A stretch of 64,000 nt of DNA from a virus, in IMG/VR virus record IMGVR_UViG_3300042868_005761, positions 1 through 64,000 of that record. The stretch is one strand, 5' to 3'. A model generated the notes under the pieces. It saw only the letters and a list, made by a program, of their open reading frames with translations, searched no databases and was not told the origin of the DNA. Shown here piece after piece: positions 3,164 to 40,631 of the stretch. How positions within the stretch are numbered: position 1 is the first letter of the stretch; the number at the start of each line of letters is the position of its first letter. The position numbers and the translations under genes were made by a program.

Positions 3164-4506
3164 TGAACAACATCGACAATTCTGTCGTCAACAAGGAGTC
3201 TGCTATGTCAATTGCATTCGTCATCTTTGCCATCCTGGCTATCATCACCGCTGTCTGGAAGGGGTCTGTCATGAACAAGTTCGTTGCCAACAAGGAGTCC
3301 GTTATGCTCGTCGTCAGCAAGAGGTCCATTGGGCTTGCGTTCAGCATTGTCTGCACTGCAGCTCTCTTCATTCCCTACGCCCTTGTGGCTACGTTCCAGG
3401 ACATGGTCGTGTGCACTCTCGCACTCGCCCCCTTGGCATTCACTGCCATTGATATCCTCATCCACGTTGAGTACCATGACGAGGTGCGCAGCATTGCACT
3501 TGCATACAATGCTCTCAAGGGTCTTCCTGCTTACGAGGCAAAAGTGAAAGCTAACTATGCGGAAATGATGGCAAAGATTGCAACCTTCCTTCTCCTCGTA
3601 ATCACTACAGCTTGCAGCACCGACGCTAAGCCTGAAATGGATAATGCGCAGTCGACGGCTAATGCTGTTACTGATTATAAGCAGGTTGATAATACTCCTA
3701 AGGCCTATGGTCAGATTGAGACTCCTGTATACAAGGACGGTGAAGTTCTGTACGGCACCTGCAGCGCATGGAAATGGAACGGTAAAGTCTACACCATCCA
3801 GCACTGCAATGAATACCTGGAAGAGCATGGCAACACGGACCGCGTCCAACAGTCAACGGCCGATAACACTATCTCTGGTGACTTCTACAAGGAAGGTACA
3901 GAGTGCAGCCCTGATATCCGCTGGTGGGGCACAACCACCAATAAGTGGGTAACTATTCCTATGGAGCAAATCTTCAAGAAGACAAGAAACTATCTTGATG
4001 CTCCTTACGAAATGCAGCAAGAGCTTATTGACTCCAAGTATAAGGCTATTACTGCTCTTAACGATTACAAGTACGCGATCGAAGAGAACAGCATGAAGAC
4101 TGATAGCGATAATGCCAAGAAAGCAAAAGAGAAAGCACGGGCGGCTTTCAACAAGTTCTACAACCAGTTGAAGTACATCAAAGAGCACTACACGAGCCAG
4201 GAGTATCTCTGTGCTTCTTCTGTAGCTGAGGATAGCATTAAGAAGGGTGACTCTGGTGGCCCCATCATGCTTGGTGATGAAGTCATTGGTAGCGCCTCCT
4301 TCTTCGTTCGGACCGACAACCAGATGTTTGATGAGTTCTACACGGAAGCTCATAGTAACTATCCGGTCTCTTGCTTTGCTATGGTTGACAATAAGCCGGT
4401 TGCATCGCCGTTCATTGATGGGATGGCGTCAAGCTACTCGGATATCTTTAGCGATTACACGAATGTCTTTGACATCATTGAAGTGTTGGGGTGGACTCAT
4501 GAATAA
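3163..4506 (+). CDS. Membrane-anchored trypsin-like serine protease (first of a tandem pair)
   Basis: Chymotrypsin-fold (S1-like) endopeptidase. Numbered from the Met at 3163, the likely triad is His214 in YTIQHC, Asp251 in ECSPDIRWWG, and Ser364 in KKGDSGGP, the signature of this family. The catalytic part is preceded by three hydrophobic segments (about residues 15-31, 48-70 and 78-100) and a further one ending in LLLVITTAC (about 145-155) that resembles a lipobox, so the protease domain probably faces outward from a membrane. In-frame SD plus ATG units (AAGGAG with six-base spacing) occur at 3205 and 3304. The gene lies between coupled neighbours, and the next gene is a paralogue. Substrate unknown. 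Confidence 0.8.
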   Translation: MNNIDNSVVNKESAMSIAFVIFAILAIITAVWKGSVMNKFVANKESVMLVVSKRSIGLAFSIVCTAALFIPYALVATFQDMVVCTLALAPLAFTAIDILIHVEYHDEVRSIALAYNALKGLPAYEAKVKANYAEMMAKIATFLLLVITTACSTDAKPEMDNAQSTANAVTDYKQVDNTPKAYGQIETPVYKDGEVLYGTCSAWKWNGKVYTIQHCNEYLEEHGNTDRVQQSTADNTISGDFYKEGTECSPDIRWWGTTTNKWVTIPMEQIFKKTRNYLDAPYEMQQELIDSKYKAITALNDYKYAIEENSMKTDSDNAKKAKEKARAAFNKFYNQLKYIKEHYTSQEYLCASSVAEDSIKKGDSGGPIMLGDEVIGSASFFVRTDNQMFDEFYTEAHSNYPVSCFAMVDNKPVASPFIDGMASSYSDIFSDYTNVFDIIEVLGWTHE

Positions 4507-8793: not shown

Positions 8794-10790
8794 TGGCTAA
8801 GAACATGACAACCGAACAAAAAGAGGCTCTTATGAAGGCCAAGCAGGAACAGAGGGAGCTCATGGAGAAAATCTCCAAGCAGTTCCCCAAGTTCGCGACG
8901 AGCAACCTGATGGGTGTCAAGAAGCGTCTTCTTGCGCTGCAGGCTATTGGTGTAGATATGTACCGTCTTCGGTGTTTTGGCAAGCTTCGGATTGTCAAGA
9001 GCAAGTTCAAGGGGCGTGACAGACAAGTGAAAATCAAGACCATGAATGCTCCGGCATTCAACAAGTTTGCTAACATCTTGCTGGCAAACAAGGAAGTCTT
9101 TACCTGGTTTAACCAGGTTGCTCATGACCCGACCTGGGAAGCCTTCTGGGTCACAATTGAGAAACTGGCAAGGAAGCCGAAGACGCTTGATACCTGGTCG
9201 GCGGCCGAGTGGATGGTTGCCCGGAACCGCTTCAAGGACACTGTTGAGCTGGTCAATCAGCTTTCAGTCAAATTCCTTGGCAAGGAAATGGCGGAAGTCA
9301 AGACTACGGAGGTTGAAGTTACGGCTCTCTTTAACAAAGAGACGTACTACTTCCGCTATGTCAGTCCTCAGATGGCATGGGATGAGTGCAAGGACATTAA
9401 CTTGCGCTACTTCCCGCCACCAAACGACGCTGGCCGGTTCTGTGTCGGTGACGGTTACTACCAGCACCAAATGAAGTCTGGTAAGTACCATGGCTACATT
9501 GTCGACAAGACAGTGGACGCCAAGACGAACTCCTACAAGGGCGGAGAGAAGTTCTCCTTTGGGTTTGTCCTTGTCACCAGCGGCGGTGTTGCGGACTGGG
9601 GATTTGGTCCTGAGAACCAAGTTACCGGCGGTGAAGAGGAGCTTGCAAAGGCTATCTTCGGTGCTTCTCGTAGCGGAGGCCTCACAGGAGGCCAACCAGA
9701 AGAGCAATGGATCCGCATGATCATGGCTGACTGGTTTAACATGCGCCAGCCCACTTACAATCAGTGGTGCAGTCATATCGAGAAAATCGTAGACCTCCGC
9801 GGCTGGGATCCAACTGGTAAGCCAGACAATGGGTTCTATGAGCGAACAGACAAAAATGGGAAAATATTCCTAGAGTATTTCTACAATGGGAATATTACTG
9901 AGCGCCTGTTCCTCAATCCCAGGGGAGTCCGTCAAACCGCCTACGCAAGCACTTGGACTGCTGGAGCTGATGGGTTCTGTCAGAAACTAAATGAGACCAG
10001 TAGCACGGTTATGCGCTGGTATATGCAGGCACCGGATACTGCAAACATGCAAATACTGGCAGAGTATCAGCAGAACAAGCTCCACCGCCTACGTGACAGT
10101 AGCATACCTGATTCTCCGTATCACTCAGCGTATTGCGCTAAGACTGCCGGAGGAACCTTGTGGGAGCTAGCAAGCAAGCATAACTTGCCATGGGAACTTT
10201 ATAGCTTTGACATGGACAGCTCTTGGGAGAACGCCGAGTTTACCCGGCCTCATCTGTTTGGACTGTCTCGTAGCGACTTTGAAGTTGCTTTGTTGGAAGA
10301 GAAGAAACAGGAAGCTGTCTTCAGTCTTCGGACAAAGGATGCTATGACGTTACAAGAAATGAAACGTCAAATCCGGAAGTTCAACGAGATGGACAATTTC
10401 TTTGAACCTCAAATTCTCAAAATGAGATATGAGCGTAACGAACTGCAGTCTTGCAACAAGAGTGGGGTAAATGGTAAGGACACTGGAGACAAGCACTATC
10501 GACTTCTGCTCCAGAGACTTATCAATCTTCATGGCTACAAGTGGATGAAAACCGCAAGTGGCTATATGTTGGTAAGCCCAATCCTGGCCTACAACAATGC
10601 AGATCGTATCATGACTGACGCCCAAAGTCGAGCCATTGATATGGGGCTTGAGAAAACAAGCGGTCTTCGTTATAAGGATCGCCTTTACTTCTCCTATGGC
10701 ATTCTTACGCCAATGGCAGATGAAATTCTTCTTTACGACGCACGTGAAGGTCTTACGACACCCTATCGCGCAAGGATGGAGCAATGGTAG
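8793..10790 (+). CDS. Large protein sharing a domain with the first gene of the window
   Basis: 665 residues with no recognised family. The N-terminus is basic and helical. At about residues 213-270 it has GRFCVGDGYYQ, FGFVLVTSGGVADWGFGPEN, matching the order GRFC.G.G, YYQ, FG..LT, V.D.G.G..N in the protein at 235-2409. This is evidence for a shared domain, possibly a binding or inhibitor module. Start 8793 overlaps the upstream TAA by one base and is preceded by a GGAGG. The C-terminal 300 residues are rich in aromatic residues and look globular. Its stop overlaps the start of the next gene, so the four large genes here are probably translated from one mRNA. Confidence 0.7.
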   Translation: MAKNMTTEQKEALMKAKQEQRELMEKISKQFPKFATSNLMGVKKRLLALQAIGVDMYRLRCFGKLRIVKSKFKGRDRQVKIKTMNAPAFNKFANILLANKEVFTWFNQVAHDPTWEAFWVTIEKLARKPKTLDTWSAAEWMVARNRFKDTVELVNQLSVKFLGKEMAEVKTTEVEVTALFNKETYYFRYVSPQMAWDECKDINLRYFPPPNDAGRFCVGDGYYQHQMKSGKYHGYIVDKTVDAKTNSYKGGEKFSFGFVLVTSGGVADWGFGPENQVTGGEEELAKAIFGASRSGGLTGGQPEEQWIRMIMADWFNMRQPTYNQWCSHIEKIVDLRGWDPTGKPDNGFYERTDKNGKIFLEYFYNGNITERLFLNPRGVRQTAYASTWTAGADGFCQKLNETSSTVMRWYMQAPDTANMQILAEYQQNKLHRLRDSSIPDSPYHSAYCAKTAGGTLWELASKHNLPWELYSFDMDSSWENAEFTRPHLFGLSRSDFEVALLEEKKQEAVFSLRTKDAMTLQEMKRQIRKFNEMDNFFEPQILKMRYERNELQSCNKSGVNGKDTGDKHYRLLLQRLINLHGYKWMKTASGYMLVSPILAYNNADRIMTDAQSRAIDMGLEKTSGLRYKDRLYFSYGILTPMADEILLYDAREGLTTPYRARMEQW

Positions 10791-13700
10791 AAAACATGAA
10801 ACAGAACGTAACCATTCCGGTTACTGACAAGGAGGGTACTATGTACCGTAGCTATCGAGAGCATCTCGAATTCTCCGGGGTGAAGAGCCCCTATGCTGAC
10901 CTTCCGGGGTTTGAATCTCTCCTCGACCACCCTGTGGTTGAGAATGGACACAAGATCCCTGAGGGTTACGCGCCTCTCTTTGCCGTTTCCAGCATGGAAA
11001 CGCTGATGGTGCCTAAGGCGCTGAAGGCAAAGCTGGTGGGTGCCGTTGAGTACACCAGCAAAACCGCTCAGAAGGGCCGCAAGTATGCGCGTTCTATGAT
11101 GACGGCCACCTACAGCGGGCTTATCTCTGCGACTGGCAAGGTTGTGAACATGGCTGACTTGGATCCTGCCTACAAGGCAATCCAGGACGGTGTCCACTAC
11201 ATGGGTACCGCAGAGCTCACCCCTGGGCCTATGACGCAGGGCATGCAGGTGCGTCGTGTTGTTAAGCGCAAGGCGTACTACAAGGGCGCAATGGGTGCAG
11301 TCAAGGTCTGGGTTCCGCCCCATGTCTTCCTGCTGAGCTCGGAGGACAAGCAGGATCTCAAGCCTGATCTCTCTGACGATGTTGCGCTTATGGTGCAGCC
11401 GAGCGTTGGTGAGATGAAGTCTGAGCCTGGGGTTCTCCTCGGCGTTCAGAACTTGAGCGCTCTTTTCGGTCAGGTTCTCAATGATCCGCAGTTCCATGCG
11501 ATCCTCAATGAGATGATTGACTGGAACATCTCGCACTGGGATGACTACGTTAAGGATTCTCTCAAGAACCTCAATGGCGATGTCCTTGAGGCTACCGAGA
11601 CGTCCACAACGTTCAAGGCCAAGATCACCAAGATGCTGCTTAGTCTTGGTGTTCACCCTGGCGCAATTCCTGCTACTGTGACTACTCTAGTCAACAGTGT
11701 CAGCGAGGATGTCACGCAGAGCAAGCTGCGCATCAACGCGGTCACGAAGGACGGCCCTTGTGGCTTTACCTCGTATCCCCGCGCTCTTGTCTGGCGGATG
11801 TTCCGCGACCTGTGGCTCCATGAGGAGAAGCAGGGTGCCTTTGCAAACGAGACCGCTGGCCTGAAGAAGCGTCGTCTTCTCATCATGGCTGAGCTTGACC
11901 GCAAGGCAAAGATCGAGGAAGCGTTCAACGCCAAGTCGGAACAGATCCTTGCCAAGACGGGATTTGCGGCAATTGCTATCACGGCAGAAGCTGCGAAGAA
12001 CCTCAACGTTCCTGCTCTTAACATCCATGATGTAAAGGGTGAGAACGAGAAGGAGCTTGCCGTCAACCATCGGGATAGCCTTGGTGCTGCGGCTCGTTGG
12101 CCTACTTCGGCTAAGGTCGATGTGCGGGTCATCTATGTTGTCCTTCAGGACGACATGTTCCTGCACGCTACTGCATACTTCGGCAGCACGGAGATCATGC
12201 AGAAGGCTGTCCTCGTTAGCATGGACGGCGGTGACGCTGACGACAAGGCATTCTTCCTCTGCGGAAAGCTTGGTCTCCTTGCTCTTCGCTCTATGAATCT
12301 GCGTAACTTCAAGCTTTCGCAGTTCAAGCCGGAAGACGTTACGGGCACGTACGAGAAGGCTCATACCTTCCTCGCAACACTGCCTAGCCGCCTTGACCTT
12401 GTCAACAGCATTCCGAATGCTCACAAGCTGATGTCTTCGTACTTCAATGTTACGGAGATTGAGAAAGTATCTTCCAGTGGCCTTATCCGCTACGAGATCA
12501 CCAGTCTCACTGAGAAGCAGCAGCCTGCAGATCCTTCGGTTGTCGACAAGACTGCTGAAGAGAAGTGGGACATGATTCACCTTCCTGGCGACAATGAGTT
12601 TATGCCTCTCGTTGGCGCAATGGCAAATGCTCAGATGTTTGGCAGCTATTTGCTTGCCGACCTGATCATCCTGCCTGGTTCCATCAAGACGAAGCCTGCA
12701 CTTCTTGCCGCTTGCATGATGGAGGGTGAGATCTCCCTCGTTGTTGACGCAGCACAGAGCGGTACCGACTTCCCGGGCGCTTGGAAGGCTTGGCACAACA
12801 TTGACGCAGTCATGACCATGATTGCTGTGAGCTGGGTTCTCAACGACCGCAATGCAATGCGTGAGAATCCTGACGCTAAGCCGACTAAACTGACTGCTCT
12901 TAAGCCTGTCCGCAAGCGTCTTGGTGTTAGCCTTCTTTCCCTTGTAACTGCACCTGTTGCTGTGCGTTACACGGGAGAAGTCTCCGAGATCACTGGTCAG
13001 CGCATCATGGTTCCGGCTCTCTTCAAGGATGAAGAAGGCAAGATCCCGATGACCGCCAAGATCTGCCAGTCTCTTCGGCAGTCGGTTGTCACTGCAACTG
13101 GTCAGGCGGTTAAGGTCGACCATCCCATCATCCGTAGCTTCACTCGCTACTGGAAGACGATGACTACGAACCTTAAGACGTTCATCGATGAAGGCACCAG
13201 CAGCCAGACGGCTACCCTTCTCACCTCTACTCTTCAGGCATTCCTTGAAGAGCACGCGCATGACCTTGATCAGCTGATCAACAAGCATTACCGCGAAGAG
13301 CAGGAGCAGTATCAGGGTGAGTTCAACCTCACGACCTTCGGTAGCTTCATCTTCCGGCAGTACCACTCGCTTAATCGCTACACGCAGGATAACGGTCATG
13401 TCATGACTGTGCCTGACGCAATGAAGCACCGGTACAACGAGATCGACAAGATCCGTTACATGCTGAACGCTGAGGAGCTCAAGACCCTTCGTCGGGTTTA
13501 CGCTCAGAAGCCTATCCATCAGGCATTCGCTACACGCCATGAAGATCTCTGGCCGAAGTTCGTAGATGTGTACGGTGACAACGCCGAATACAAGTACGAG
13601 ATCTTTGTGCTTGCTGAGCTTATGTCTGCGCTTGGTACGTCTGCAGAGACGGCTATCACGCTCTCCATGGGCAAGGGTAAGATCGAATTCCTCCTTGACG

Positions 13701-15199
13701 AGGATGGCGAGAAGACGAAGTTCATCGATTCTGATGCGATTGACGCGCAGGGTGAGCTTACCTCCAGCGGTGGTTACAGCCGCAAGATGTACTTCACTTC
13801 TACTGCAAACTACAAGGGCTACGCAGAAGTTCTCTGCAAGTTCCTTGAGGATGCTGCCGTGAAGAAGACTCAGGATAAGCTTCTTGCTGCCGACGTTCGC
13901 GCCGCCTTCCTCATTCGTGAGAGCAAGGATGGTAAGACTGTTGATCCTCAGTCCCTTGTTGGCCTCAGCATCCAGCAGCTCCTCAGCGACAACCGCATCC
14001 AGCTTGCATACGGTGGACAGCGCGGTAACCCTGACCAGGACCATCGCGCCGCCGCAGTTGCTTACTTGGTCTTCCGCAAGACCAGTGAGACTCGCAAGGC
14101 ATTCGATGAGATCGGTGCCTTCAAGGGCAAGACTCAGTGGCAGATTGCCGGCATGATGGGCTACCACGGTACTCTCAACAACTTCTTCAGCGGTGCTACC
14201 GTTGAGGCAAGCGAAGTGGAGAAGCGTGACGGTCATGGTGCCAACGGCAAGACCTACACTCGTAACTTCGTCTGGCTGACCTTCAAGGGTCAAGAGCCGG
14301 TCAAGCCGGAGCCTCCTCCCGAGAAGGAGTTCTTCGATATCTCTGCTTCTGAGAATATCGACTACGACAAGATGCTGGAGAGCGCAGGCATGGCAGACTT
14401 CAACTTTGAAGATGCCTTTGGTTCTGAGAATCCAGTCAGCGCTGAAGAGCTGGAGCAGTATGCTACCGAGTACGACAGTGACGAGGAAGAGTCTGAGACT
14501 CAAATCTTCAGTGAAGTACTTAAAGGCACGTACACTGCGGCACAGCCTGTACAACTTGTAATGGTCAACGGCAAGTGGCAGCCTAAGAACATGGCAGATG
14601 TCAATTGGGTCCCGGTTGACGCTCCTGCTGTTGAAGCCAAGCCTGCTCCTGCTGTGCCTGTTGTTGCCGTGGAAGCAAAGCCCTACAGGATTGCATTCAC
14701 TGGTCATCGCCCCGAAAAGATTGGCGGCTATGACGAGAATCATCCTCTGCGTGTTGCTGTAAAGAATGCAATCGCAGATGCATTGAAGCGTGCCATTGCC
14801 AAGTACAGTGCAACTCGTGAGATCATCGTCGTTACTGGTGGTGCTCTTGGTGTTGACACTGATGCCGCACGTGAGGCTCACAAGCTTGGCCTGAAGTTCA
14901 TCGTGGCTCGTCCTTGCAGCGACCATGGTGATTACTTCAAGGGTGACGAAGCTAAGATGCGTTACAAGAAGATGCTTGCTCTTGCTCATCAAGTTGTCCT
15001 TGTCAATAAGAAAGGCTACGACCTTGCAGGCAAAGAGAAGTGTCTCCACGCACGGAACTACTGGATGGTTGATAACTGCGAGGCGGTTGTCGCAATCTGG
15101 GATGGTTCTCCGAGTGGCACATCCAACTGTGTCAACTACGCCAAGAAGGTCAATCGTCCAATGATTATCATCAACCCGAACGACCTTGCAAAGAAGTAG
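10784..15199 (+). CDS. Giant 1471-residue protein with C-terminal SLOG-like Rossmann domain; body possibly a divergent polymerase
   Basis: The last 170 residues (from about 1300) begin IAFTGHRPEKIGGY and contain VVTGGALGVDTDAAREA and VAIWDGSPSGTSNCV, which match SLOG/DprA-like nucleotide-sensing Rossmann domains. An acidic linker (about 1190-1260) joins this to a large body. The body is unrecognised but carries DGGDADDK at residues 481-488 and, about 165 residues later, MEGEISLVVDAAQSG. The order and spacing recall the metal-binding GGDxDGD loop and the later AVDxxKTG motif of QDE-1/YonO-type single-chain RNA polymerases. The third Asp is Lys here, so this is only a hypothesis. Starts: 10784, overlapping the upstream stop, or 10841 after AAGGAG. 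Confidence 0.7.
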   Translation: MVENMKQNVTIPVTDKEGTMYRSYREHLEFSGVKSPYADLPGFESLLDHPVVENGHKIPEGYAPLFAVSSMETLMVPKALKAKLVGAVEYTSKTAQKGRKYARSMMTATYSGLISATGKVVNMADLDPAYKAIQDGVHYMGTAELTPGPMTQGMQVRRVVKRKAYYKGAMGAVKVWVPPHVFLLSSEDKQDLKPDLSDDVALMVQPSVGEMKSEPGVLLGVQNLSALFGQVLNDPQFHAILNEMIDWNISHWDDYVKDSLKNLNGDVLEATETSTTFKAKITKMLLSLGVHPGAIPATVTTLVNSVSEDVTQSKLRINAVTKDGPCGFTSYPRALVWRMFRDLWLHEEKQGAFANETAGLKKRRLLIMAELDRKAKIEEAFNAKSEQILAKTGFAAIAITAEAAKNLNVPALNIHDVKGENEKELAVNHRDSLGAAARWPTSAKVDVRVIYVVLQDDMFLHATAYFGSTEIMQKAVLVSMDGGDADDKAFFLCGKLGLLALRSMNLRNFKLSQFKPEDVTGTYEKAHTFLATLPSRLDLVNSIPNAHKLMSSYFNVTEIEKVSSSGLIRYEITSLTEKQQPADPSVVDKTAEEKWDMIHLPGDNEFMPLVGAMANAQMFGSYLLADLIILPGSIKTKPALLAACMMEGEISLVVDAAQSGTDFPGAWKAWHNIDAVMTMIAVSWVLNDRNAMRENPDAKPTKLTALKPVRKRLGVSLLSLVTAPVAVRYTGEVSEITGQRIMVPALFKDEEGKIPMTAKICQSLRQSVVTATGQAVKVDHPIIRSFTRYWKTMTTNLKTFIDEGTSSQTATLLTSTLQAFLEEHAHDLDQLINKHYREEQEQYQGEFNLTTFGSFIFRQYHSLNRYTQDNGHVMTVPDAMKHRYNEIDKIRYMLNAEELKTLRRVYAQKPIHQAFATRHEDLWPKFVDVYGDNAEYKYEIFVLAELMSALGTSAETAITLSMGKGKIEFLLDEDGEKTKFIDSDAIDAQGELTSSGGYSRKMYFTSTANYKGYAEVLCKFLEDAAVKKTQDKLLAADVRAAFLIRESKDGKTVDPQSLVGLSIQQLLSDNRIQLAYGGQRGNPDQDHRAAAVAYLVFRKTSETRKAFDEIGAFKGKTQWQIAGMMGYHGTLNNFFSGATVEASEVEKRDGHGANGKTYTRNFVWLTFKGQEPVKPEPPPEKEFFDISASENIDYDKMLESAGMADFNFEDAFGSENPVSAEELEQYATEYDSDEEESETQIFSEVLKGTYTAAQPVQLVMVNGKWQPKNMADVNWVPVDAPAVEAKPAPAVPVVAVEAKPYRIAFTGHRPEKIGGYDENHPLRVAVKNAIADALKRAIAKYSATREIIVVTGGALGVDTDAAREAHKLGLKFIVARPCSDHGDYFKGDEAKMRYKKMLALAHQVVLVNKKGYDLAGKEKCLHARNYWMVDNCEAVVAIWDGSPSGTSNCVNYAKKVNRPMIIINPNDLAKK

Positions 15200-15684: not shown

Positions 15685-15704
15685 GGGGCTATCGCCCCTT
15701 TTTT
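15685..15704 (+). terminator. Repeated GGGGC-TATC-GCCCC terminator, copy 1
   Basis: GGGGC, loop TATC, GCCCC, then a run of six T's. The preceding 90 bases are rich in repeated GCTTCGCTCG-like words and hold no gene. The same hairpin plus the downstream word TTTCTGCGGAG recurs 75 bases later. Confidence 0.8.
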
Positions 15705-15757
15705 CTGCGGAGTCCAGATGTCCTGGCTCCCGTTTGGTCCAGCGTGATGGACTGCGA

Positions 15758-15779
15758 GAGGGGCTATCGCCCCTTGTTT
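15758..15779 (+). terminator. Repeated GGGGC-TATC-GCCCC terminator, copy 2
   Basis: Identical stem and loop to the copy at 15685, with the T-run interrupted by one G, then the same TTTCTGCGGAG word. It lies directly upstream of the SSB gene and may insulate it from read-through. Confidence 0.75.
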
Positions 15780-15824
15780 CTGCGGAGAGGAGGATGGTCC
15801 TTCTCTCCACACTGGAGCGCACCC

Positions 15825-16250
15825 ATGAGCATGGGCTTTGAGCGTACTCAGGTCGTCGGCAACCTTGGAGCCGACCCTATTCTCCTGACGGGCCAGTCGG
15901 GAACTTCCATCTGCGCCATGCGCGTCGCTGTCAACCGCAAGGTCAAGGGCGTCGCTGTCGTGAAGTGGCGGGACGTCGTGTGCTTCGGTGCACTCGCGGA
16001 GAACATGGCGAAGATCCTCAAGAAGGGCGACACCGTGTTCGTGGACGGAACCCCCGAAGACGAAGAGTTCCTCCGCAAGGATGGCTCCAAGGGCTTCGCC
16101 GTCAAGATCCTCGCCAACGTCGTCGTCAAGACTGGCTCCCCCGCTGGCGCTTCGGCTCCGACTGCGGCTTCGGCTGCGGGCGGTGACGCGGCTGCGGAGG
16201 CCCTTGCGGCGCTTCGCGAGACTGCCAGCGTCCCGACCGACCCCTTCTAG
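15825..16250 (+). CDS. ssb: Single-stranded DNA-binding protein (SSB), first copy
   Basis: OB-fold SSB that coats single-stranded DNA in replication and repair. From the ATG at 15825 it has the opening VVGNLGADP, the core VKWRDVVCFGALAENMAKILKKGD, a Gly/Ala-rich linker, and the acidic-hydrophobic tip VPTDPF that in bacterial SSBs recruits partner enzymes. Length 141 residues fits the family. The ATG at 15825 follows a TGGAG word, and upstream in-frame ATGs have no SD and fall in the terminator repeat. It is GC-richer than its right-hand neighbours. A second, distinct SSB lies at 20044. Confidence 0.9.
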   Translation: MSMGFERTQVVGNLGADPILLTGQSGTSICAMRVAVNRKVKGVAVVKWRDVVCFGALAENMAKILKKGDTVFVDGTPEDEEFLRKDGSKGFAVKILANVVVKTGSPAGASAPTAASAAGGDAAAEALAALRETASVPTDPF

Positions 16251-16267
16251 GGCGCAGGTCGAGCCTC

Positions 16268-16303
16268 AACCCCCCTTCGCCCTAGCGGGCGTCGGGGGGT
16301 TTC
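16268..16303 (+). terminator. Strong two-part terminator after ssb
   Basis: The outer stem AACCCCCC/GGGGGGTT encloses the inner stem GCCC-TAGC-GGGC, 18 bases after the SSB stop. The T-tract is short, so termination may be partial. Confidence 0.7.
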
Positions 16304-16360
16304 GGAGCCCTGTCTTCGCTGAGTAAAAATAGGCCCGCAACTCCGCTTAGTATAGATACA

Positions 16361-16382
16361 GAGGGGCTATCGCCCCTTTTTT
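16361..16382 (+). terminator. Repeated GGGGC-TATC-GCCCC terminator, copy 3
   Basis: GAGGGGC, TATC, GCCCCTTTTTT: the same hairpin as at 15685 with a run of six T's. It lies upstream of a small gene and of the large structured RNA. Confidence 0.85.
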
Positions 16383-16418
16383 CGGTGGATAGGCAATTCT
16401 GCTTATATGGAGGAAGTC

Positions 16419-16628
16419 ATGTTGATGAGTGCTGCTGCGATCTTGACTGATAGTTTTGAGAAGGTTCAGAAGGAGACTCTGAGCCTGGATGACGTGAACC
16501 ATGAGTCTTATGACCCGTGGGATGCCATCAATGAGCGTCTCGATGAGAAGAAGTACGAGGAAGATGCCAACACTGGCTCTGACTCGCTGATTGAAGCCGT
16601 GCATACGGCCCGCCGTTTCTTTATCTAG
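16419..16628 (+). CDS. Small acidic protein of unknown function
   Basis: 69 residues from the ATG at 16419. The SD GGAGG lies eight bases upstream and itself overlaps an in-frame ATG at 16407, which is therefore a less likely start. The protein is acidic, with no membrane segment and no recognised family. It is the last coding sequence before the 16.63-17.5 kb RNA region, and its stop is followed at once by an AGTC-TTCG-GACT hairpin. Confidence 0.5.
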   Translation: MLMSAAAILTDSFEKVQKETLSLDDVNHESYDPWDAINERLDEKKYEEDANTGSDSLIEAVHTARRFFI

Positions 16629-16631
16629 TCT

Positions 16632-17495
16632 TCGGACTGATAGAGATAGGAGTCTACCCTCCGAAGTTAAGAGCACCTGTCCGCGGGACTCGGGGTAGAA
16701 CTCATGTGCTGGATCTCCTAAGGAGGCACATGTTTAAACAGAAGAGGGGACGACCTAGGGTATGTCGTAAAACTACCCGACTTTTTACGGCGATAGTGGG
16801 TTACACTAGTTCTAGTAGTAGGGTGTAAACTCTATTAGAACTACCATGAAGCGCCATCCTTCAAGAGTTTACTAGTACAATCATAAGTGCGCCTGCCGCT
16901 TATGGGAACCTAGTGAGAGTCAGTTAGTTGCTGTGGGTGTATGGGAGCATAGCACGGTGACGAAAGTCTGCCGTGTTTATGCCGCTACCAGCACATATGG
17001 GTCATTGACTCATAACCACGAAACCTGGCTATATAAAAAGGCTGGTTACTGGTTGGAGCCCTGCCACTAGTAATAAGATAGACATGGGCTTCAAATCCTC
17101 TAGAAAAACCATAGGTGAGCCTGCCACTTATTGGGAACCTAGAGGTAGTCAGGGTTGCAAACCTGGCTTTAGCGATGGGCTGGCTGTTAGTGGACCCCTG
17201 CCACTAATGGAGAAAGACGAACATGGGGTGGTGACTAGTTGGAGCCCTGCCGCTAGTAACGAGATAAACATGGGCACTATCGGAACTCCTTTACTCACCC
17301 TCGGGAAGGATAGGTAGATAAGACAAAGAGGTACTCGTCTGTCCTAGCAGATGAGCAGTGCTGCAGCGCTGTAATATATAGGAGTCCCCAAGCCGTTTCT
17401 CGGGTTTGGATTATGGCTTTAGACAGAGGTTTGATCAGTCTGGTGACGCAACGGACCACACGCGGTTATGGGTTCGATTCCCATATGATTGAATT
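16632..17495 (+). ncRNA. Large structured RNA candidate with repeated CCTGCC-loop hairpins and pseudoknots
   Basis: About 860 bases with no credible ORF but dense pairing: AGTC-TTCG-GACT (16632), CATGTGC/GCACATG with inner CTCC/GGAG (16703-16732), TAGTTCTA/TAGAACTA (16807-16843), a GAAA-capped stem (16947-16982), CTCGTCTG/CAGATGAG (17334-17355), CAGTGC/GCGCTG (17356-17371) and CCAAGCC/GGTTTGG (17388-17409). Five hairpins with loops containing CC(C)TGCC sit at 16882-16904, 17046-17073, 17111-17131, 17187-17207 and 17231-17260, with different stems that still pair. In three, the loop also pairs downstream: AGCCC/GGGCT (17057, 17086), ACCCC/GGGGT (17194, 17225) and GCCC/GGGC (17244, 17272). It ends in a T-arm-like hairpin at 17468-17484. 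Its size and placement near small genes and tRNAs recall GOLLD or ROOL RNAs, but I cannot assign it to either. Confidence 0.75.
17468..17484 (+). other. tRNA T-arm-like hairpin
   Basis: ATGGG-TTCGATT-CCCAT has the exact form of a tRNA T-arm with the conserved TTCGA loop. No matching acceptor, D-arm or anticodon arm can be folded around it in normal tRNA spacing, so it is either a tRNA remnant or a tRNA-like module at the end of the structured RNA. Confidence 0.5.
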
Positions 17496-17517
17496 ACTTT
17501 TACTAAGAGGTTACAAG

Positions 17518-17682
17518 ATGAGAAATCAGTTTCCTGGAGTATGTTACCGATGCGGCAAGACTGTTCCTGCTAAGGAGGGACACTTTGAACGTCACATCGG
17601 TACTTGGCGAACACAACATGTCGACTGTGCAATCAAGTACAGAGGCACATCTTACAGTCACACTGCTACAAACAAGGAGTAG
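17518..17682 (+). CDS. Small zinc-finger-like protein
   Basis: 54 residues from the ATG at 17518, which follows AAGAGGT. The longer in-frame start at 17413 would run through the T-arm-like hairpin and has no SD, so it was not chosen. The pattern CYRCGK...H...H...C fits a compact zinc-binding finger (CxxC, then two His and one Cys). Phages often encode such small regulators. Target unknown. Confidence 0.6.
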   Translation: MRNQFPGVCYRCGKTVPAKEGHFERHIGTWRTQHVDCAIKYRGTSYSHTATNKE

Positions 17683-17685
17683 CAC

Positions 17686-18267
17686 ATGAACAACAAGAAC
17701 ACGATCTTCAATTTCAGCGCTGTCCGCCTTTTCGCAACCGAGATCGCCAAGAGGATGAACCATCTCGGATACGATACGACCTACTCGGTTGCCATGACCG
17801 AGTTCAGTGGCCCGACCATCAGCTCCGCCATCAGGGGCAACACGGAAAAGGAAGGGTACTACATCGTGGAGCACGGGATGTTCCACGACGCACGCAAAGG
17901 CTTCGAGGTCAATTTCACGATTAGCCTCCCCAGTCCCGAAGGCGGATACATCACCGAATGGGTCAGCGCCAAAATCAACAGGATCCGTCTCCGTGACTAC
18001 CTGGAGACCGAGGAGACCCTGTACTCCGTCCCGACTCTGGAAGTGTACTCGGAGCGGTTTGGAGAGACCGCTGCCTTCTACAGTGCAATCCCCACCTTGA
18101 CGAAGCACTTTGACTTCACGGTCAAGAACGTCAAGGCTGACATGGACAGTCTCATCAACCTGTTCTGGGGACAGAAGAGCCTCCTCAGCAAGATTGAAGA
18201 CCCCGACTGTGCCATCGAGGAGTTTAATAACCTCCTGGTTGAGTTGGGAAGTTCTGTCTCGTCCTAG
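17686..18267 (+). CDS. Protein of unknown function
   Basis: 193 residues starting three bases after the previous stop, with AAGGAG seven bases upstream of the ATG. The fold appears mixed alpha/beta with no membrane segment and no recognised motif. The gene is GC-richer than the genes after 21.7 kb. It is followed by a second gene-free structured stretch. Confidence 0.7.
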   Translation: MNNKNTIFNFSAVRLFATEIAKRMNHLGYDTTYSVAMTEFSGPTISSAIRGNTEKEGYYIVEHGMFHDARKGFEVNFTISLPSPEGGYITEWVSAKINRIRLRDYLETEETLYSVPTLEVYSERFGETAAFYSAIPTLTKHFDFTVKNVKADMDSLINLFWGQKSLLSKIEDPDCAIEEFNNLLVELGSSVSS

Positions 18268-18420
18268 TAGTCAACTGATTACTAGTAGGTCCACAGCCTG
18301 AAACCTGCCCGTTGGTAGGCTAACCTATCAGATGTCATGTCTGGTAGCCACAAAGGCTGAATCACTTCCTTATGGTAACAGATGGGTTCGAATCCTGTCA
18401 GGAAGACTTTACCCCCTTAT
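18268..18420 (+). ncRNA. Structured RNA candidate ending in a T-arm/acceptor-like minihelix
   Basis: Gene-free segment with an enclosing CAGCC/GGCTG stem (18294-18298 with 18355-18359), an inner eight-pair stem CTATCAGA/TCTGGTAG (18325-18347), and a 3' minihelix CTTCCT/AGGAAG (18365-18405) capped by a T-arm-like hairpin containing GGGTTCGAATCC. It looks like half a tRNA, with acceptor and T-arm but no D or anticodon arm. It may be an independent RNA or a decayed tRNA. Confidence 0.5.
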
Positions 18421-18433
18421 ATAGAGGTTTGTC

Positions 18434-18889
18434 ATGGAAAAGCAGTTTGCAATGGAAACGGTTCAGGACATGGATAAGATCCTTGCTATCCTCAAGCCCA
18501 AACTTGAAGATAGTAAGATGAAGTATCACTTCCTCAAAGAAGAGGACACCACCGAGTGGCATTACAAAGACCAACAGGAATACTGGAGAGTCCGTAAGTC
18601 AGTCGTAGACACTTACTTCAACTGCTTGCAGATGAATGAGTGGGCCGGAGATTATCGCCGTTTTCTGGAAACAGGTCTTGATGGATGGACCTCTAGGGAT
18701 CTGTCGAAGGTCGGCAAAGAGATCCTCAACAGATACCTCAACAAAGTAGTTGAGGAAACCTGGTGGGATGCCAATGAGGACCGCCTTATGGGAGAATTCG
18801 AAAGTTCCCGCCAAGGACTCGGCGATGATGACCGCAACTTTGAGTGGTACATCAATCAGCAATACGAGACTTACCTCCACGAACTGTAA
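18434..18889 (+). CDS. Acidic protein of unknown function
   Basis: 151 residues, predicted mostly helical and charged, with many aromatic residues (WHYKDQQEYWRVRK). Family not recognised. The start at 18434 is preceded by AGAGGT seven bases upstream. No membrane segment. The gene lies between the structured segment at 18.3 kb and a run of very small genes. Confidence 0.65.
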   Translation: MEKQFAMETVQDMDKILAILKPKLEDSKMKYHFLKEEDTTEWHYKDQQEYWRVRKSVVDTYFNCLQMNEWAGDYRRFLETGLDGWTSRDLSKVGKEILNRYLNKVVEETWWDANEDRLMGEFESSRQGLGDDDRNFEWYINQQYETYLHEL

Positions 18890-18900
18890 CGAGAAAACCA

Positions 18901-19047
18901 ATGAAGCATATCAATCTTAGAGTGTTTGTCGTAAATAAAGGTATTGTTATCAATGAGAAGCATAACAATATCGATACGGCAATGAACCGTGGAGTAGTTC
19001 TCGCAAACAACCTTGGTGGTCGATGGACCATCACTATCAGTAAGTAG
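18901..19047 (+). CDS. Small protein of unknown function
   Basis: 48 residues from the ATG at 18901, with a weak upstream SD (ACGAGAA). It has a beta-like segment (INLRVFVVNKGIVINE) followed by a short helix. No family recognised. It is a member of a tightly spaced run of tiny genes with only 6-12 bases between them. Confidence 0.5.
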   Translation: MKHINLRVFVVNKGIVINEKHNNIDTAMNRGVVLANNLGGRWTITISK

Positions 19048-19053
19048 GATATA

Positions 19054-19218
19054 ATGAGCAAGAGCTTCAGATTCGACAAGAAAGAACTCAAGAGTTATCA
19101 GCTCCAGAATATGCATAACGCCAACCATGGCGATAAGCGTAAGCAGAACGAGATCGAGGAAACTCGGAAGTTCGATTGGAGAGAAGAGATTGGGAGAAAC
19201 GCGTTAGACCCCCAATAG
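19054..19218 (+). CDS. Small basic/charged protein of unknown function
   Basis: 54 residues, very rich in Lys, Glu, Asn and Gln, probably one long helix. The start at 19054 lies six bases after the previous stop and follows a TAGGATA word. No hydrophobic segment. It could be a small nucleic-acid-binding or inhibitor protein, but nothing specific supports that. Confidence 0.45.
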   Translation: MSKSFRFDKKELKSYQLQNMHNANHGDKRKQNEIEETRKFDWREEIGRNALDPQ

Positions 19219-19400
19219 GTAATACTGGTTGATCCTTAAAAGACCAGAGGTTTGGTATCCCAGAAAATCCTGCATAGATCTAGTTCGCTAGGTCTAGAGC
19301 AAAACTGTCCTAGTTCAGAAAATAACTAGGTGGTACGTCTGGTAACCCAGAGCGCAAAGGCCCCTCTCATCTAGCAATAGGCGGGAGGGGCCCCACACTT
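19219..19400 (+). ncRNA. Structured RNA candidate
   Basis: About 180 gene-free bases made almost entirely of perfect hairpins: CTGGT/ACCAG (19225-19247), TAGATCTAG-TTCG-CTAGGTCTA (19275-19296), CCTAGTT/AACTAGG (19309-19330), CTGG-TAAC-CCAG (19339-19350) and GGCCCCTC/GAGGGGCC (19359-19392). It is followed by the repeated terminator at 19411. Serial tetraloop hairpins and a closing terminator suggest a discrete, stable small RNA. The class is not recognised. Confidence 0.6.
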
Positions 19401-19410
19401 TATAAGACTA

Positions 19411-19433
19411 GAGGGGCTATCGCCCCTTCTTTG
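19411..19433 (+). terminator. Repeated GGGGC-TATC-GCCCC terminator, copy 4
   Basis: GAGGGGC-TATC-GCCCC followed by TTCTTTG. Same hairpin as at 15685 and 16361. It closes the structured segment at 19219-19400. Confidence 0.8.
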
Positions 19434-19459
19434 TTTGGAACCAATTCCAAGGAGGAAAA

Positions 19460-19570
19460 GTGGCCGACAAGAGTACGTTTATCTTTGTGATGTTGCTTCT
19501 AGTTACAACAAAACTTCTAATAGATGACTTTAGCAGTATGCTAACAGTATTAGATCTCTTGTTGTGGTAG
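19460..19570 (+). CDS. Tiny membrane peptide
   Basis: 36 residues starting at GTG 19460 after a near-ideal AAGGAGG. The middle is hydrophobic (FIFVMLLLVTTKLLI), enough for one membrane span. The strong SD is the main reason for accepting such a short frame. Function unknown. Confidence 0.5.
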   Translation: MADKSTFIFVMLLLVTTKLLIDDFSSMLTVLDLLLW

Positions 19571-19649
19571 AGGTACGATTCCTATTGTTCCTATTAGGTT
19601 TGATGTTTAAGTTCGTCTGGTTGATCAAAATCCTCAATTAGGAGATCCC

Positions 19650-19811
19650 GTGTATAACCCCGATCCGAATCTGTTCAACATTAACTATAGAGACGCAGAC
19701 AACATCAGTTATCTAGTTGCAAGACTTGAACTGACATGGGGCTCTGAGCGTATCAATACACTTATGAAAGCAGCCAGAACTATTCTGGATAACCAAGAGA
19801 AGGAGAACTAA
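19650..19811 (+). CDS. Small helical protein of unknown function
   Basis: 53 residues from GTG 19650, six bases after AGGAG. The second half is probably an amphipathic helix. The gene ends in AAGGAGAACTAATG, where its last codons form the SD of the following gene and its stop overlaps the next ATG, so the two are translationally coupled. Confidence 0.5.
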   Translation: MYNPDPNLFNINYRDADNISYLVARLELTWGSERINTLMKAARTILDNQEKEN

Positions 19812-19963
19812 TGCGAAACATTCTGATGAGTAGTGTGTCTTTTAGTATGAGCCATGCCAATGGAACTGCAAGCATTGTGGTTCCTGTCTGGTATACAATC
19901 CTGTATTTCTGTGCCAGCATGTTTTGGCCAGTAGTTGCAGCATGGGCCCTGTGTAGCCGCTAG
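19811..19963 (+). CDS. Small membrane protein
   Basis: 50 residues from the ATG at 19811, coupled to the gene before by a one-base stop/start overlap and an AAGGAG. The hydrophobic segment SIVVPVWYTILYFCASMFWPVVAAWAL, shown here only in outline, spans about residues 22-47 and should cross the membrane once. The stop codon lies directly against a terminator. Function unknown. Confidence 0.5.
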   Translation: MRNILMSSVSFSMSHANGTASIVVPVWYTILYFCASMFWPVVAAWALCSR

Positions 19964-19984
19964 AGGGGCTATCGCCCCTTTCTT
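19963..19984 (+). terminator. Repeated GGGGC-TATC-GCCCC terminator, copy 5
   Basis: Begins at the last base of the preceding stop codon: GAGGGGC-TATC-GCCCCTTTCTT. Identical stem and loop to the four other copies between 15.6 and 19.4 kb. Confidence 0.85.
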
Positions 19985-20043
19985 GTGTGAAATTAATTAA
20001 TATTAGTAACCAATTGTCCGTAGAAAAACGGAAAGGAGATAGA

Positions 20044-20433
20044 ATGCAAGATCTTAATGAAGTTAGAGTTCGTGGTCGTCTTACTAAGAGCCCTGAGTTG
20101 AGCAGTTCCGAGTCCGCACAGTCCCGTGCCGTTCTCAATGTCTGCACCAACTACCGTTACACCAACGCCAAGGGTGAGAAGGTTTCCAAGCCTTCATACC
20201 ATCGCGTCGTTGTCTTTGGTCCCAATGCTGAGAATGCTTCCAAGTATCTCGGTAAAGGTCATCAGGTAGAAATCGATGGTCGCAGTGAAACTCGTGAGTA
20301 CAAGACAGAGACGGGAGACCGCCGCTGGATCACGGAGATCATCGCAGATGTAGTTCGGTACGGTGAAGCCCCTAAGAAGGCAGAGTCGTCAGAGCCTGTC
20401 ATCGAAACTGTAACGGACATTGATCCGTTCTAA
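20044..20433 (+). CDS. ssb: Single-stranded DNA-binding protein (SSB), second copy
   Basis: 129 residues from the ATG at 20044 (SD AAAGGAGAT). OB-fold signs: VRVRGRLTKSPEL at the start, a basic central strand region with YHRVVVFGPNAENASKYLGKG, WITEIIADVVRYG, and the acidic tip TDIDPF. It differs clearly from the SSB at 15825, so the window carries two distinct SSBs with the same kind of C-terminal tip. They may act at different stages or on different partners. Confidence 0.88.
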   Translation: MQDLNEVRVRGRLTKSPELSSSESAQSRAVLNVCTNYRYTNAKGEKVSKPSYHRVVVFGPNAENASKYLGKGHQVEIDGRSETREYKTETGDRRWITEIIADVVRYGEAPKKAESSEPVIETVTDIDPF

Positions 20434-20461
20434 CCAACTACTAGGGTAAAACCTAGGCTGC

Positions 20462-20536
20462 GTGCCCGTAGCACAGTTGGATAGTTGCAACGGCCTTCTA
20501 AGCCGTAGGTCACTGGTTCAAGTCCAGTCGGGCACA
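20462..20536 (+). tRNA. tRNA-Arg (UCU)
   Basis: Full cloverleaf: acceptor GTGCCCG/CGGGCAC, anticodon stem ACGGC/GCCGT with loop CTTCTAA (anticodon TCT), and T-arm ACTGG-TTCAAGT-CCAGT. The discriminator base is A and CCA is not encoded. It is isolated from the main tRNA cluster and lies just after the second SSB. It would read AGA/AGG. Confidence 0.93.
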
Positions 20537-20586
20537 CTGTTAAAACATTAACGCTCTATTTCAGAGCCAACAAAAGAGGTGTGAGA

Positions 20587-20907
20587 ATGAAGATTCCGTT
20601 TACGTGTAGTGGGACAATCAAGATCGGCAACACCGCTGGACCTGTCACGGCTCGAGTTACTACTGAGCGTGGAAGTTTTGTGGTTACCCGATGCAAGATC
20701 ATGAATGGATCCGAAGCAGGTGCAGACGCAGAGGTCTGGGCCCCAGGAGAGATTGGTGCTGATGGCTTTAGCCTGAGCTTCAAGGATCTTCCTGTATTTC
20801 TTAAGCGTCACAACAAGGGCGCTGACGGCAAGCCGATGTATCCAGGCTACCGTTCAATCCAGATTCACGCACCTAATGCAGGTGCCTTTCGTCGAGTGGA
20901 GGGTTAA
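20587..20907 (+). CDS. Protein of unknown function
   Basis: 106 residues from the ATG at 20587, with AGAGGTG upstream. An in-frame GTG at 20581 overlaps the SD and is less likely. The protein looks beta-rich (TCSGTIKIGNTAGPVTARV...). It ends with a TAA directly abutting the next ATG, so it probably works with or is co-translated with the membrane protein downstream. No family assigned. Confidence 0.65.
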   Translation: MKIPFTCSGTIKIGNTAGPVTARVTTERGSFVVTRCKIMNGSEAGADAEVWAPGEIGADGFSLSFKDLPVFLKRHNKGADGKPMYPGYRSIQIHAPNAGAFRRVEG

Positions 20908-38118: not shown

Positions 38119-38160
38119 TGCCTTTGCTCAGGTGGCGAAATCGGCATACGCAGCAGACTT

Positions 38161-38848
38161 ATAGAAAATTTGAGCCCTATAGGGGAAACCTTATAGGTGA
38201 AGACAATCAAATTCGGTGAAGGCTAAACTAGTTTACTAGCATGCTAATACCGAGCTAAGCCTTAAATGGCAAACACACAGTTTATTCTCCATTACCTATG
38301 CTATAATATTACTATGAGAAAATATAAAGATTATACAGATCAGCAAATAATAGATGCTGTTAAGGCTAGTAAAAGCATTTCCCAAGTACTTAAAGTTCTT
38401 GGGCTAAAGCAAGCTGGAGGTAATTACGCAAATGTCCAACGGAACATCCAAAGACTATTGTGTGACACCTCTCACTTTACTGGCAAAGGTTGGAATAAAG
38501 ATCAACAGTTGAAAGACTGGAGTTCTTATTCTAAAGCTGCTAATCTAAAACCTCATTTAATAAAAAAGCGTACTCATCAATGCGAACAATGTAATCTTTC
38601 AGAATGGCTTTCTGAGCAGATAAAATTGGAAATACATCACATTGATGGAGATAGGACAAATAATGTAGAAGAAAACTTGCAGTTGCTTTGTCCAAACTGT
38701 CATTCTATGACAGACTCTTGGAGAAAAGCAAACCATTTAAGGAAAGTGTAGAGACTAGACGGTTGTTACCTAATGTAGAAATACTATGGTAAAGGTATAG
38801 TCCAGACCACAAACGGCATATGCTGGTAGTGAAAACTATAGTGGTAAG
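38161..38848 (+). other. Group I intron in tRNA-Leu(UAA)
   Basis: 688 bases. The exon ends in T, as group I introns require, and can pair (CTT with GAG, final T-G) to the TTGAGCC just inside the intron. The intron ends in G. Core-like sequences follow in order: TCAAATTCGG, GGTGAAGGCTAA, CCGAGCTAAGCC (about 38250-38262), then an ORF, then AGAGACTAGACGG (about 38750-38762), as in P4-P7 of group I catalytic cores. The 5' part is strikingly like the Anabaena tRNA-Leu intron. The HNH ORF is inserted in the P8-side loop. It is therefore expected to self-splice. Confidence 0.88.
38266..38751 (+). CDS. Intron-encoded HNH homing endonuclease
   Basis: 161 residues from 38266, or 145 from the ATG at 38314, and neither has an SD. 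The N-terminal helical part (YTDQQIIDAVKASKSISQVL and DTSHFTGKGWNK) is the DNA-recognition region seen in phage HNH enzymes. The catalytic part is CEQC, then LEIHHIDGDRTNNVEENLQ, then LCPNCH: two CxxC zinc pairs around a His-His/Asn core. Its position within the intron means it can spread the intron to intronless tRNA-Leu genes. The stop overlaps the 3' half of the intron core. Confidence 0.9.
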   Translation: MANTQFILHYLCYNITMRKYKDYTDQQIIDAVKASKSISQVLKVLGLKQAGGNYANVQRNIQRLLCDTSHFTGKGWNKDQQLKDWSSYSKAANLKPHLIKKRTHQCEQCNLSEWLSEQIKLEIHHIDGDRTNNVEENLQLLCPNCHSMTDSWRKANHLRKV

Positions 38849-38902
38849 AAAATCTGCCTTCCTTGGAATTACGGGTTCAAGTCCCGTCCTGAGCACTTAT
38901 TT

Positions 38903-40623: not shown

Positions 40624-40631
40624 GGAGATTC

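Follow-up and report, generated by a model that had tools for sequence, protein, structure and literature searches.

What is the stretch of about 860 nt that separates, on the + strand of a large phage genome, an ORF of 73 aa (16407-16628) from one of 54 aa that begins at 17518? An earlier note, made from the sequence, had read it as one large ornate RNA built around a threefold repeated, covarying pseudoknot, and had named GOLLD and ROOL as the obvious comparators. Analysis of the window (the whole 64,000-nt stretch, bases 1-64000 of a 176,231-base IMG/VR virus record) and of related phages shows that this locus, here termed RNA1, is a new RNA family with a distinct architecture, tandem pseudoknots followed by a tRNA-like tail, represented in six phage species. 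By kind it is a large phage RNA of unknown function; it belongs to neither GOLLD nor ROOL.

The window phage encodes single-strand-binding proteins, an adenylosuccinate-synthetase-like protein, a ribonucleotide reductase, a DNA ligase and a UvsX-like recombinase. No close cultured relative was found, and one genome scan with its ribonucleotide reductase, made to assign a host, gave only a 31% match. Relatives of RNA1 were sought by a loose DNA pattern, the neighbouring single-strand-binding protein, the tRNA-like tail, the B unit, the E1 hairpin and the neighbouring ORFs, and all routes led to the same six species: the window phage, L062 (with L034, L056 and L063), L026 (with L004), L064, L076 (with L077) and L061. 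No RNA1 carrier beyond these species was detected in IMG/VR, and RNA1 and the two structured RNAs that neighbour it, RNA2 and RNA3, gave no DNA match to annotated phages. The 59 initial matches to the DNA pattern were mostly due to chance, and only L004, L026, L034 and L056 among them proved homologous. The RNA1 array is carried by five species, the window phage included. L061, which is approximately 93% identical to the window up to RNA1, has 213 nt where the window has 806; it lacks any pseudoknot unit and retains the 3' end only. Four of the six phages keep a small upstream ORF of one family beside the RNA, and the other two carry related ORFs. The first gene 3' of RNA1 varies among relatives, while the tail is kept. 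The features described below are collected in Table 1.

Table 1. Structural features of RNA1 and RNA2 in the window (CM, covariance model).
Feature	Position	Strand	Elements	Basis
RNA1	16632-17493	+	whole structured-RNA locus	sequence, ORF list, homologous loci
Module A	16643-16785	+	hairpins, terminal pseudoknot-like pairing (loop GGGTA/TACCC)	
E1 long hairpin	16787-16855	+	16789-16792/16852-16855; 16807-16818/16832-16843	
B unit 1	16868-16919	+	outer CTAG stem, inner hairpin loop CGCCTGC, GGGAACC junction	
Hairpin-rich insertion	16924-17020	+	97 nt, window copy only (about 14 nt here in L062)	alignment by eye
Pseudoknot unit 1	17046-17090	+	S1 17046-17056/17064-17073; loop AGCCCTG 17057-17063; S2 AGCCC 17057-17061/GGGCT 17086-17090	CM E 3e-19
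B unit 2	17097-17145	+	outer CCTCTAG/CTAGAGG, inner hairpin loop AGCCTGC	
Pseudoknot unit 2	17184-17229	+	S1 17184-17193/17201-17210; loop ACCCCTG; S2 ACCCC 17194-17198/GGGGT 17225-17229	CM E 5e-19
Pseudoknot unit 3	17232-17275	+	S1 17232-17242/17250-17259; loop AGCCCTG; S2 GCCC 17244-17247/GGGC 17272-17275	CM E 1e-18
Hairpin CAGTGC-TGCA-GCGCTG	17356-17371	+		sequence comparison
TLD1, tRNA-like domain	17431-17492	+	acceptor TTGATCA/TGATTGA; mini D-arm GTC-TGGT-GAC (17438-17447); variable central arm; T-loop TTCGATT (17473-17479)	
RNA2	18285-18405	+	three-way junction (P1 18294-18299/18354-18359), then TLD2	
TLD2 minihelix	18365-18405	+	acceptor 18365-18370/18400-18405; T-arm 18381-18386/18394-18399	

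The repeated unit of the array is an H-type pseudoknot, with two crossing helices that both covary. An S1 hairpin of about 10 bp carries a 7-nt loop, which forms the 4-5-bp helix S2 with a sequence 11-16 nt past the hairpin; the strand that crosses S1 is rich in A. Fourteen units were gathered by eye and 13 were counted, L076_a being left out with its 6-nt loop. For pair counting, each unit was cut to the 10 + 10 nt of S1, the 7-nt loop and the S2 partner, with the linker L3 and single bulged bases removed, and the units were registered by hand at fixed length; MAFFT had misaligned three of them. Standard pairs fill 95.4% of the pair cells in these 13 units, against 83.4% in shuffles and 30-60% for slid partners (best 59.6%). 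Nine of the 15 pairs are changed on both sides (4.1 in shuffles) and 24 cells are double-changed (7.2 in shuffles), with none of 500 shuffles as high in either count, although independent changes are fewer than these figures imply, since the units are partly paralogues in a small family of six phage species. The double changes fall in seven of ten S1 pairs (96.9% of cells paired) and two of five S2 pairs (92.3%). There is strong support for the claim that the locus is a large structured RNA in which a covarying pseudoknot is repeated; related phages keep the pairs through changes on both sides, and the three loop pairings named in the earlier note lie exactly where it had placed them.

Position-wise inspection refines these pairings. 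The second loop position is C-G in six units, G-C in five, and G-U and U-G in one each, so that the loop change from G to C answered by a change from C to G, first noticed within the window, belongs to a pair kept in 13 of 13 units; in L026_b the last S2 position is also flipped, to U-A. The first loop base, an A that had been counted into the pairing, pairs in nine of the 13 units, is unpaired in the other four and shows no double change; it therefore probably belongs to loop L1, leaving an S2 of 4 bp.

The number of units differs between phages: three in the window, four each in L062 and L026, two in L064 and one in L076. A covariance model built from nine units recovered the held-out ones (E 8e-14 to 6e-4) and placed significant units at the RNA1 locus only, in eight of nine records. 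As no other clear unit was found across the nine records, unit number is a real, fast-changing trait among related phages. A degenerate pseudoknot-like unit (ACTAGTAGTGACCCTGCTAGTG...) lies in L026 at 2500-2600, about 0.4 kb upstream of the array, and is perhaps a remnant copy. The array region had been described as free of ORFs; the window does hold a 77-aa ATG frame at 17084-17317, but this is frame-shifted in L062, the closest array-bearing relative, and not open in L026, and a degraded coding region was rejected.

Interleaved with the pseudoknots are two units of a second kind, the B units, for which an enclosing stem with compensated differences had been proposed at 16868-16917 and 17097-17145. 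This stem is borne out by the relatives, with 98.7% of cells paired and five pairs changed on both sides. Outer stems include TTACTAG/CTAGTGA, CCTCTAG/CTAGAGG and CTTCTAG/CTAGGGG, and inner stems CATAAGTG/CGCTTATG, CATAGGTG/CACTTATT and CATGAACG/CGTTCATG. A downstream partner had been assigned to three of the five hairpins with similar loops; those three stand, and the loops of the B hairpins are likely to pair downstream as well. In five of seven units, all 5 nt of the B loop GCCT[GA] find a partner at a constant 55-57 nt, immediately ahead of the hairpin that follows (GCCTA with TAGGC, GCCTG with TAGGC or TGGGC), and B unit 2 has a candidate partner TGGGC about 57 nt downstream. Since only one-sided changes occur, this pairing is likely, short of demonstrated. 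If the B loops do pair, the window array is probably a chain of five pseudoknots, each closed just before the next one starts.

Comparison with the relatives shows that the locus is not a single unit. Module A is 88% identical to L076 1665-1805, and in L076/L077 it is an RNA of its own, 1.3 kb upstream of the array and with a terminator-like hairpin behind it; the hairpin-rich insertion, in turn, is unique to the window copy. The RNA of about 860 nt is thus, judged by sequence comparison, a composite of modules, the last of which is a tRNA-like domain. In module A, the stem CTACCC/GGGTAG becomes CCATCC/GGATGG in L076/L077 through two compensated changes, and the loop of the last hairpin can pair downstream (GGGTA/TACCC in the window; GCGCA/TGCCC, with one mismatch, in L076). 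Likenesses of this module to 5S rRNA ('CCGAAGTTAAGAGCACC') and to the 3' end of 16S rRNA ('GCTGGATCTCCTAAGGAGG') were seen by eye and dropped, with no Rfam support. Further downstream, the TGCA loop of the hairpin at 17356-17371 is kept on other stems, AGGGTGC/GCGCCCT in L061 and GGTCTGC/GCGGGCC in L062/L076. As a whole, the + strand of RNA1 folds better than its shuffles (z -2.75), and the - strand less so (z -1.23).

The E1 hairpin is likewise maintained, with 96.9% of cells paired, seven pairs changed on both sides and none of 500 shuffles as high. There is complementarity between the 5' bulge of this hairpin, GTTACAC (16800-16806), and its apical loop, GTGTAA (16823-16828). Across relatives the bulge reads GTTACA[CT] and the loop [GA]TGTAA, both pairings being kept, with one double change in the bulge-loop helix. 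Because a 12-bp helix stands between the two strands and the linkers measure 0-1 nt, it looks sterically impossible for both helices to form fully in cis. The bulge-loop pairing may represent a dimer contact or a switch.

At its 3' end RNA1 closes with TLD1, which the earlier note had missed; the note had also overlooked that the locus is modular, that the two remaining loops probably pair, that close relatives differ in unit number, and that two further structured RNAs lie nearby. TLD1 is followed by a discriminator-like A at 17493, has a D-arm of three pairs, and has neither an encoded CCA nor an anticodon loop. The central arm is short in the window, L061 and L064, forms a long hairpin in L026 and L062, and reaches about 130 nt in L076. 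Free-energy folding gives a cloverleaf-like TLD1 in L026, L061 and L064. Pairing is standard in 98.3% of cells, and four acceptor pairs are changed on both sides, almost wholly owing to one lineage, L061, whose acceptor CTAGTTG/CAACTAG keeps all seven pairs though most differ from the others. TLD1 stands downstream of the array and also, in L061, of an unrelated short RNA; its presence there without the array marks it as a portable 3' module. In L076/L077 the insertion of about 130 nt in the central arm (near 3250-3410) holds a T-arm-like hairpin, AAGGG TTCAATC CCCTT, and resembles a decayed tRNA nested inside TLD1.

A second tail of the same kind ends RNA2, which lies 0.8 kb downstream of RNA1 and is found in all six phages. 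All of its 192 pair cells in the six phages are standard (100%), nine pairs are double-changed, and no shuffle out of 500 was as high. TLD2 comprises a 6-bp acceptor (CTTCCT/AGGAAG, CTTTCC/GGAAAG), a 6-bp T-arm (GATGGG/CCTGTC, GATAGG/CCTATC, AACTGG/CCAGTT, AACAGG/CCTGTT) and a linker with GG; L026 has an extra hairpin in the position of the anticodon arm. In both tails the T-loop and the D-loop GG are kept, and the anticodon arm is lost or replaced. The T-loop, the D-loop GG and the stacked acceptor and T-arm are the parts recognised by tRNA-processing enzymes. Neither domain is a tRNA with a full cloverleaf and a 7-nt anticodon loop: ARAGORN called neither, and RF00005 matched neither. Both are tRNA-like domains, with stacked acceptor and T-arm, a T-loop TTCRANT, the D-loop GG and covarying stems, the stack in TLD1 being about 13 bp long rather than 12. 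An alanine identity of TLD1 (G3-U70) was considered and dropped, as it varies with the acceptor count (13 or 12 stacked pairs) and is missing in L061. T-arm motifs number seven in the window against 0.13 expected; four of them fall within called tRNAs, TLD1 and TLD2 account for two, and the last belongs to an intron-split tRNA. A supposed third tRNA-like RNA at 38874 was rejected, being the 3' half of that split gene. A location near phage tRNAs, part of the comparison with GOLLD and ROOL, fits RNA1 loosely, the nearest true tRNA lying 3 kb away.

Searches with known families agree with the earlier note in recognising neither of its comparators, which remain reasonable by kind but not by family. 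Rfam at relaxed thresholds gave nothing in 16200-20600 up to E = 10 except one tRNA and chance matches. The GOLLD model (RF02032) scored at best 8.1 bits, against a gathering score of 150 bits, at unrelated places in eight records, and gave no hit up to E = 10 within the RNA region itself; ROOL (RF03087, gathering score 99.1 bits) had no match there either, nor in the eight records, with the control also silent. GOLLD and ROOL are, like RNA1, large, ornate, pseudoknotted RNAs of phages and prophages, of unknown function and often near tRNAs, whereas the RNA1 body consists of small tandem pseudoknots in variable number with a 3' tRNA-like domain. With tmRNA it shares a pseudoknot chain and a tRNA-like domain that has a reduced D-arm and a long helix replacing the anticodon arm, but in RNA1 the two halves of the tRNA-like domain adjoin each other at the 3' end, with the pseudoknots outside the domain; of the tmRNA model (RF00023), the T-arm alone matched TLD1, at 10.5 bits against a threshold of 47. 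The 3'-UTR of tobamoviruses joins an upstream pseudoknot domain to a tRNA-like structure whose acceptor arm is itself pseudoknotted, at the genome end of a plant RNA virus; RNA1, in contrast, comes from a DNA phage and has an ordinary acceptor stem. A Y-RNA relationship was dropped, since no TROVE/Ro protein was found in the window phage.

A parallel in layout is offered by MALAT1 and NEAT1, long noncoding RNAs that have a small tRNA-like structure, altered in its anticodon arm, downstream of them (mascRNA/menRNA). That structure is a substrate of tRNA-processing enzymes, and the 3' ends are made when RNase P and RNase Z cut it (PMC12941219), a maturation route described as unique to these two among long noncoding RNAs (PMC12941219); in RNA1 such cleavage would be the counterpart. 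By contrast with the phage RNA1, both are nuclear RNAs of vertebrates; in them a triple helix precedes the tRNA-like part. RNase P also cuts phage M3 RNA, the C4 RNA of P1/P7, tmRNA precursors and plant-virus tRNA-like structures (PMC11143913). M3 and C4 thus offer examples of phage RNAs matured by host RNase P, as RNA1 may be, but they are small and have no pseudoknot array.

We hypothesize, giving it an even chance, that RNA1 is an undescribed modular structured phage RNA that is released at its tail by host tRNA enzymes and whose array serves as a trans-acting multivalent platform or decoy. The model starts from what is directly seen: the structure, its conservation, its modularity and the reuse of the tail kind by RNA2. 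RNA1 would be transcribed within a longer polycistronic mRNA, given the same-strand genes and the lack of a reported terminator between RNA1 and the next gene; none was seen there or after RNA2, by a scan that also missed the evident hairpin at 16363. Host RNase P would then cleave 5' of the tRNA-like domain and RNase Z 3' of it, where CCA would be added, as suggested by the retention of the enzyme-read parts while the anticodon arm varies. Cutting at TLD1 and TLD2 could free or protect the RNA, as in MALAT1/mascRNA. Action in trans is suggested because the first downstream gene differs among relatives, and a multivalent binding role because near-identical loops sit on changing stems and are repeated in variable number; the stable array may thus act as a platform or decoy for a host factor, with a strength set by the number of units. 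Against this model, L061, the closest relative by its flanks, lives without the array, the family is small and its units partly paralogous, the TLD1 stack measures about 13 bp rather than 12, and the acceptor covariation of TLD1 stems almost wholly from L061.

More tentatively, and at somewhat less than even confidence, this DNA phage lineage may end at least two otherwise unrelated structured RNAs, both matured by host tRNA enzymes, in a portable tRNA elbow that lacks an anticodon; one of the two would be a multivalent decoy formed by a pseudoknot chain of variable copy number. By analogy, and just as tentatively, such an RNA could correspond, in phages, both to the MALAT1 tail and to the pseudoknots with a tRNA-like 3' end known from plant viruses.

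Among the other explanations, the one that survives best, unlikely as we judge it, makes RNA1 a cis-acting intercistronic element that stabilises or punctuates a polycistronic mRNA or controls an adjacent gene, with no free trans RNA. The position between same-strand genes, the lack of a reported terminator before the next gene and the small ORFs that accompany the RNA upstream are consistent with this, but the first downstream gene changes between relatives, module A and RNA2 stand alone elsewhere, and both the size and the number of units go far beyond what an mRNA stabiliser needs.

Next in order, and also unlikely, RNA1 could resemble GOLLD and ROOL in forming a homo-oligomeric particle through kissing contacts. 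Its size, phage location and ornate structure are similar, and the complementarity of the E1 bulge to its own loop, a covarying pairing kept though cis formation looks impossible, suggests a dimer contact; contacts of this kind between molecules build the GOLLD and ROOL assemblies (PMC12286853). Yet there is no sequence or structure match to either RNA, the intermolecular evidence amounts to one double change, and module content and length vary too much for a fixed symmetric cage to be easily built.

We consider it rather improbable that RNA1 is an RNA antitoxin mimic, whose tandem pseudoknots imitate a host type III antitoxin and so block abortion by a ribonuclease toxin, in the manner of the 'pseudo-ToxI' of phiTE escape mutants. 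Type III antitoxins are tandem repeats of pseudoknots of 34-36 nt or longer, and phages have escaped type III systems by enlarging pseudo-ToxI arrays (PMC5086642). The RNA1 array does consist of tandem pseudoknots, which run head to tail at about 47-50 nt and vary in number between close relatives, as in ToxI, CptI, TenpI and phage pseudo-ToxI; it differs from these in unit sequence, in the divergence of units within one array, in the interleaved B units and in its place inside a larger RNA with a tRNA-like tail. No Rfam antitoxin family matched, no toxin gene was found nearby, and ToxN-like PF13958 had no match in the eight phage records, the control genomes being silent too. As a role for the array, a type III toxin decoy is a concrete option, weakly supported. 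The remaining idea, that the region changes fast without constraint and contains repeats and the debris of tRNA genes, would account for the unusable anticodon arm of TLD1 and the many insertions and losses, but it is very improbable and already disfavoured, as compensatory changes keep the stems in every module tested, which decay would not do.

The large structured RNAs of phages, GOLLD and ROOL, have no known function. The RNA1 family is modular and variable and has smaller units, so that each unit, the length of the array and the tail are separately testable. Cleavage of the tail by RNase P or RNase Z would mean that the phage uses a tRNA maturation route for large stable RNAs; binding of a host defence ribonuclease by the array would add to the few known RNA-based counter-defences.

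RNA1 and RNA2 are part of an RNA-rich stretch bracketed by two different single-strand-binding protein genes (15744-16250 and 19987-20433). Near-identical terminator-like hairpins (GGGGCTATCGCCCC) with T-runs occur at 15685, 15760, 16363 and 19413; there are four exact copies in the record, all within this stretch, and the one at 16363, GGGGCTATCGCCCCTTTTTT, is evident in the sequence despite having been missed by the terminator scan. RNA3 (19197-19395) is an intergenic structured RNA, near-identical in L061, 86% identical in L064 and 79% in L062, with compensated changes in some hairpins. Elsewhere in the window, a 1471-aa protein (10784-15199) carries a C-terminal YpsA/SLOG nucleotide-binding domain, no other part being recognised, and the adenylosuccinate-synthetase-like gene (40599-41702) matches PF00709 and PHROG 1211 ('2-aminooxy adenylosuccinate synthetase'). 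The split tRNA gene at 38126-38895, missed by ARAGORN, has its 5' half (GCTCAGG) at 38126 and its 3' half ending at 38895, and reads as tRNA-Leu UAA. Its intron looks like group I, with a P7-like AGGTATAGTCC near 38795, and encodes an HNH endonuclease (ORF 38266-38751); the split tRNA is conserved in four relatives.
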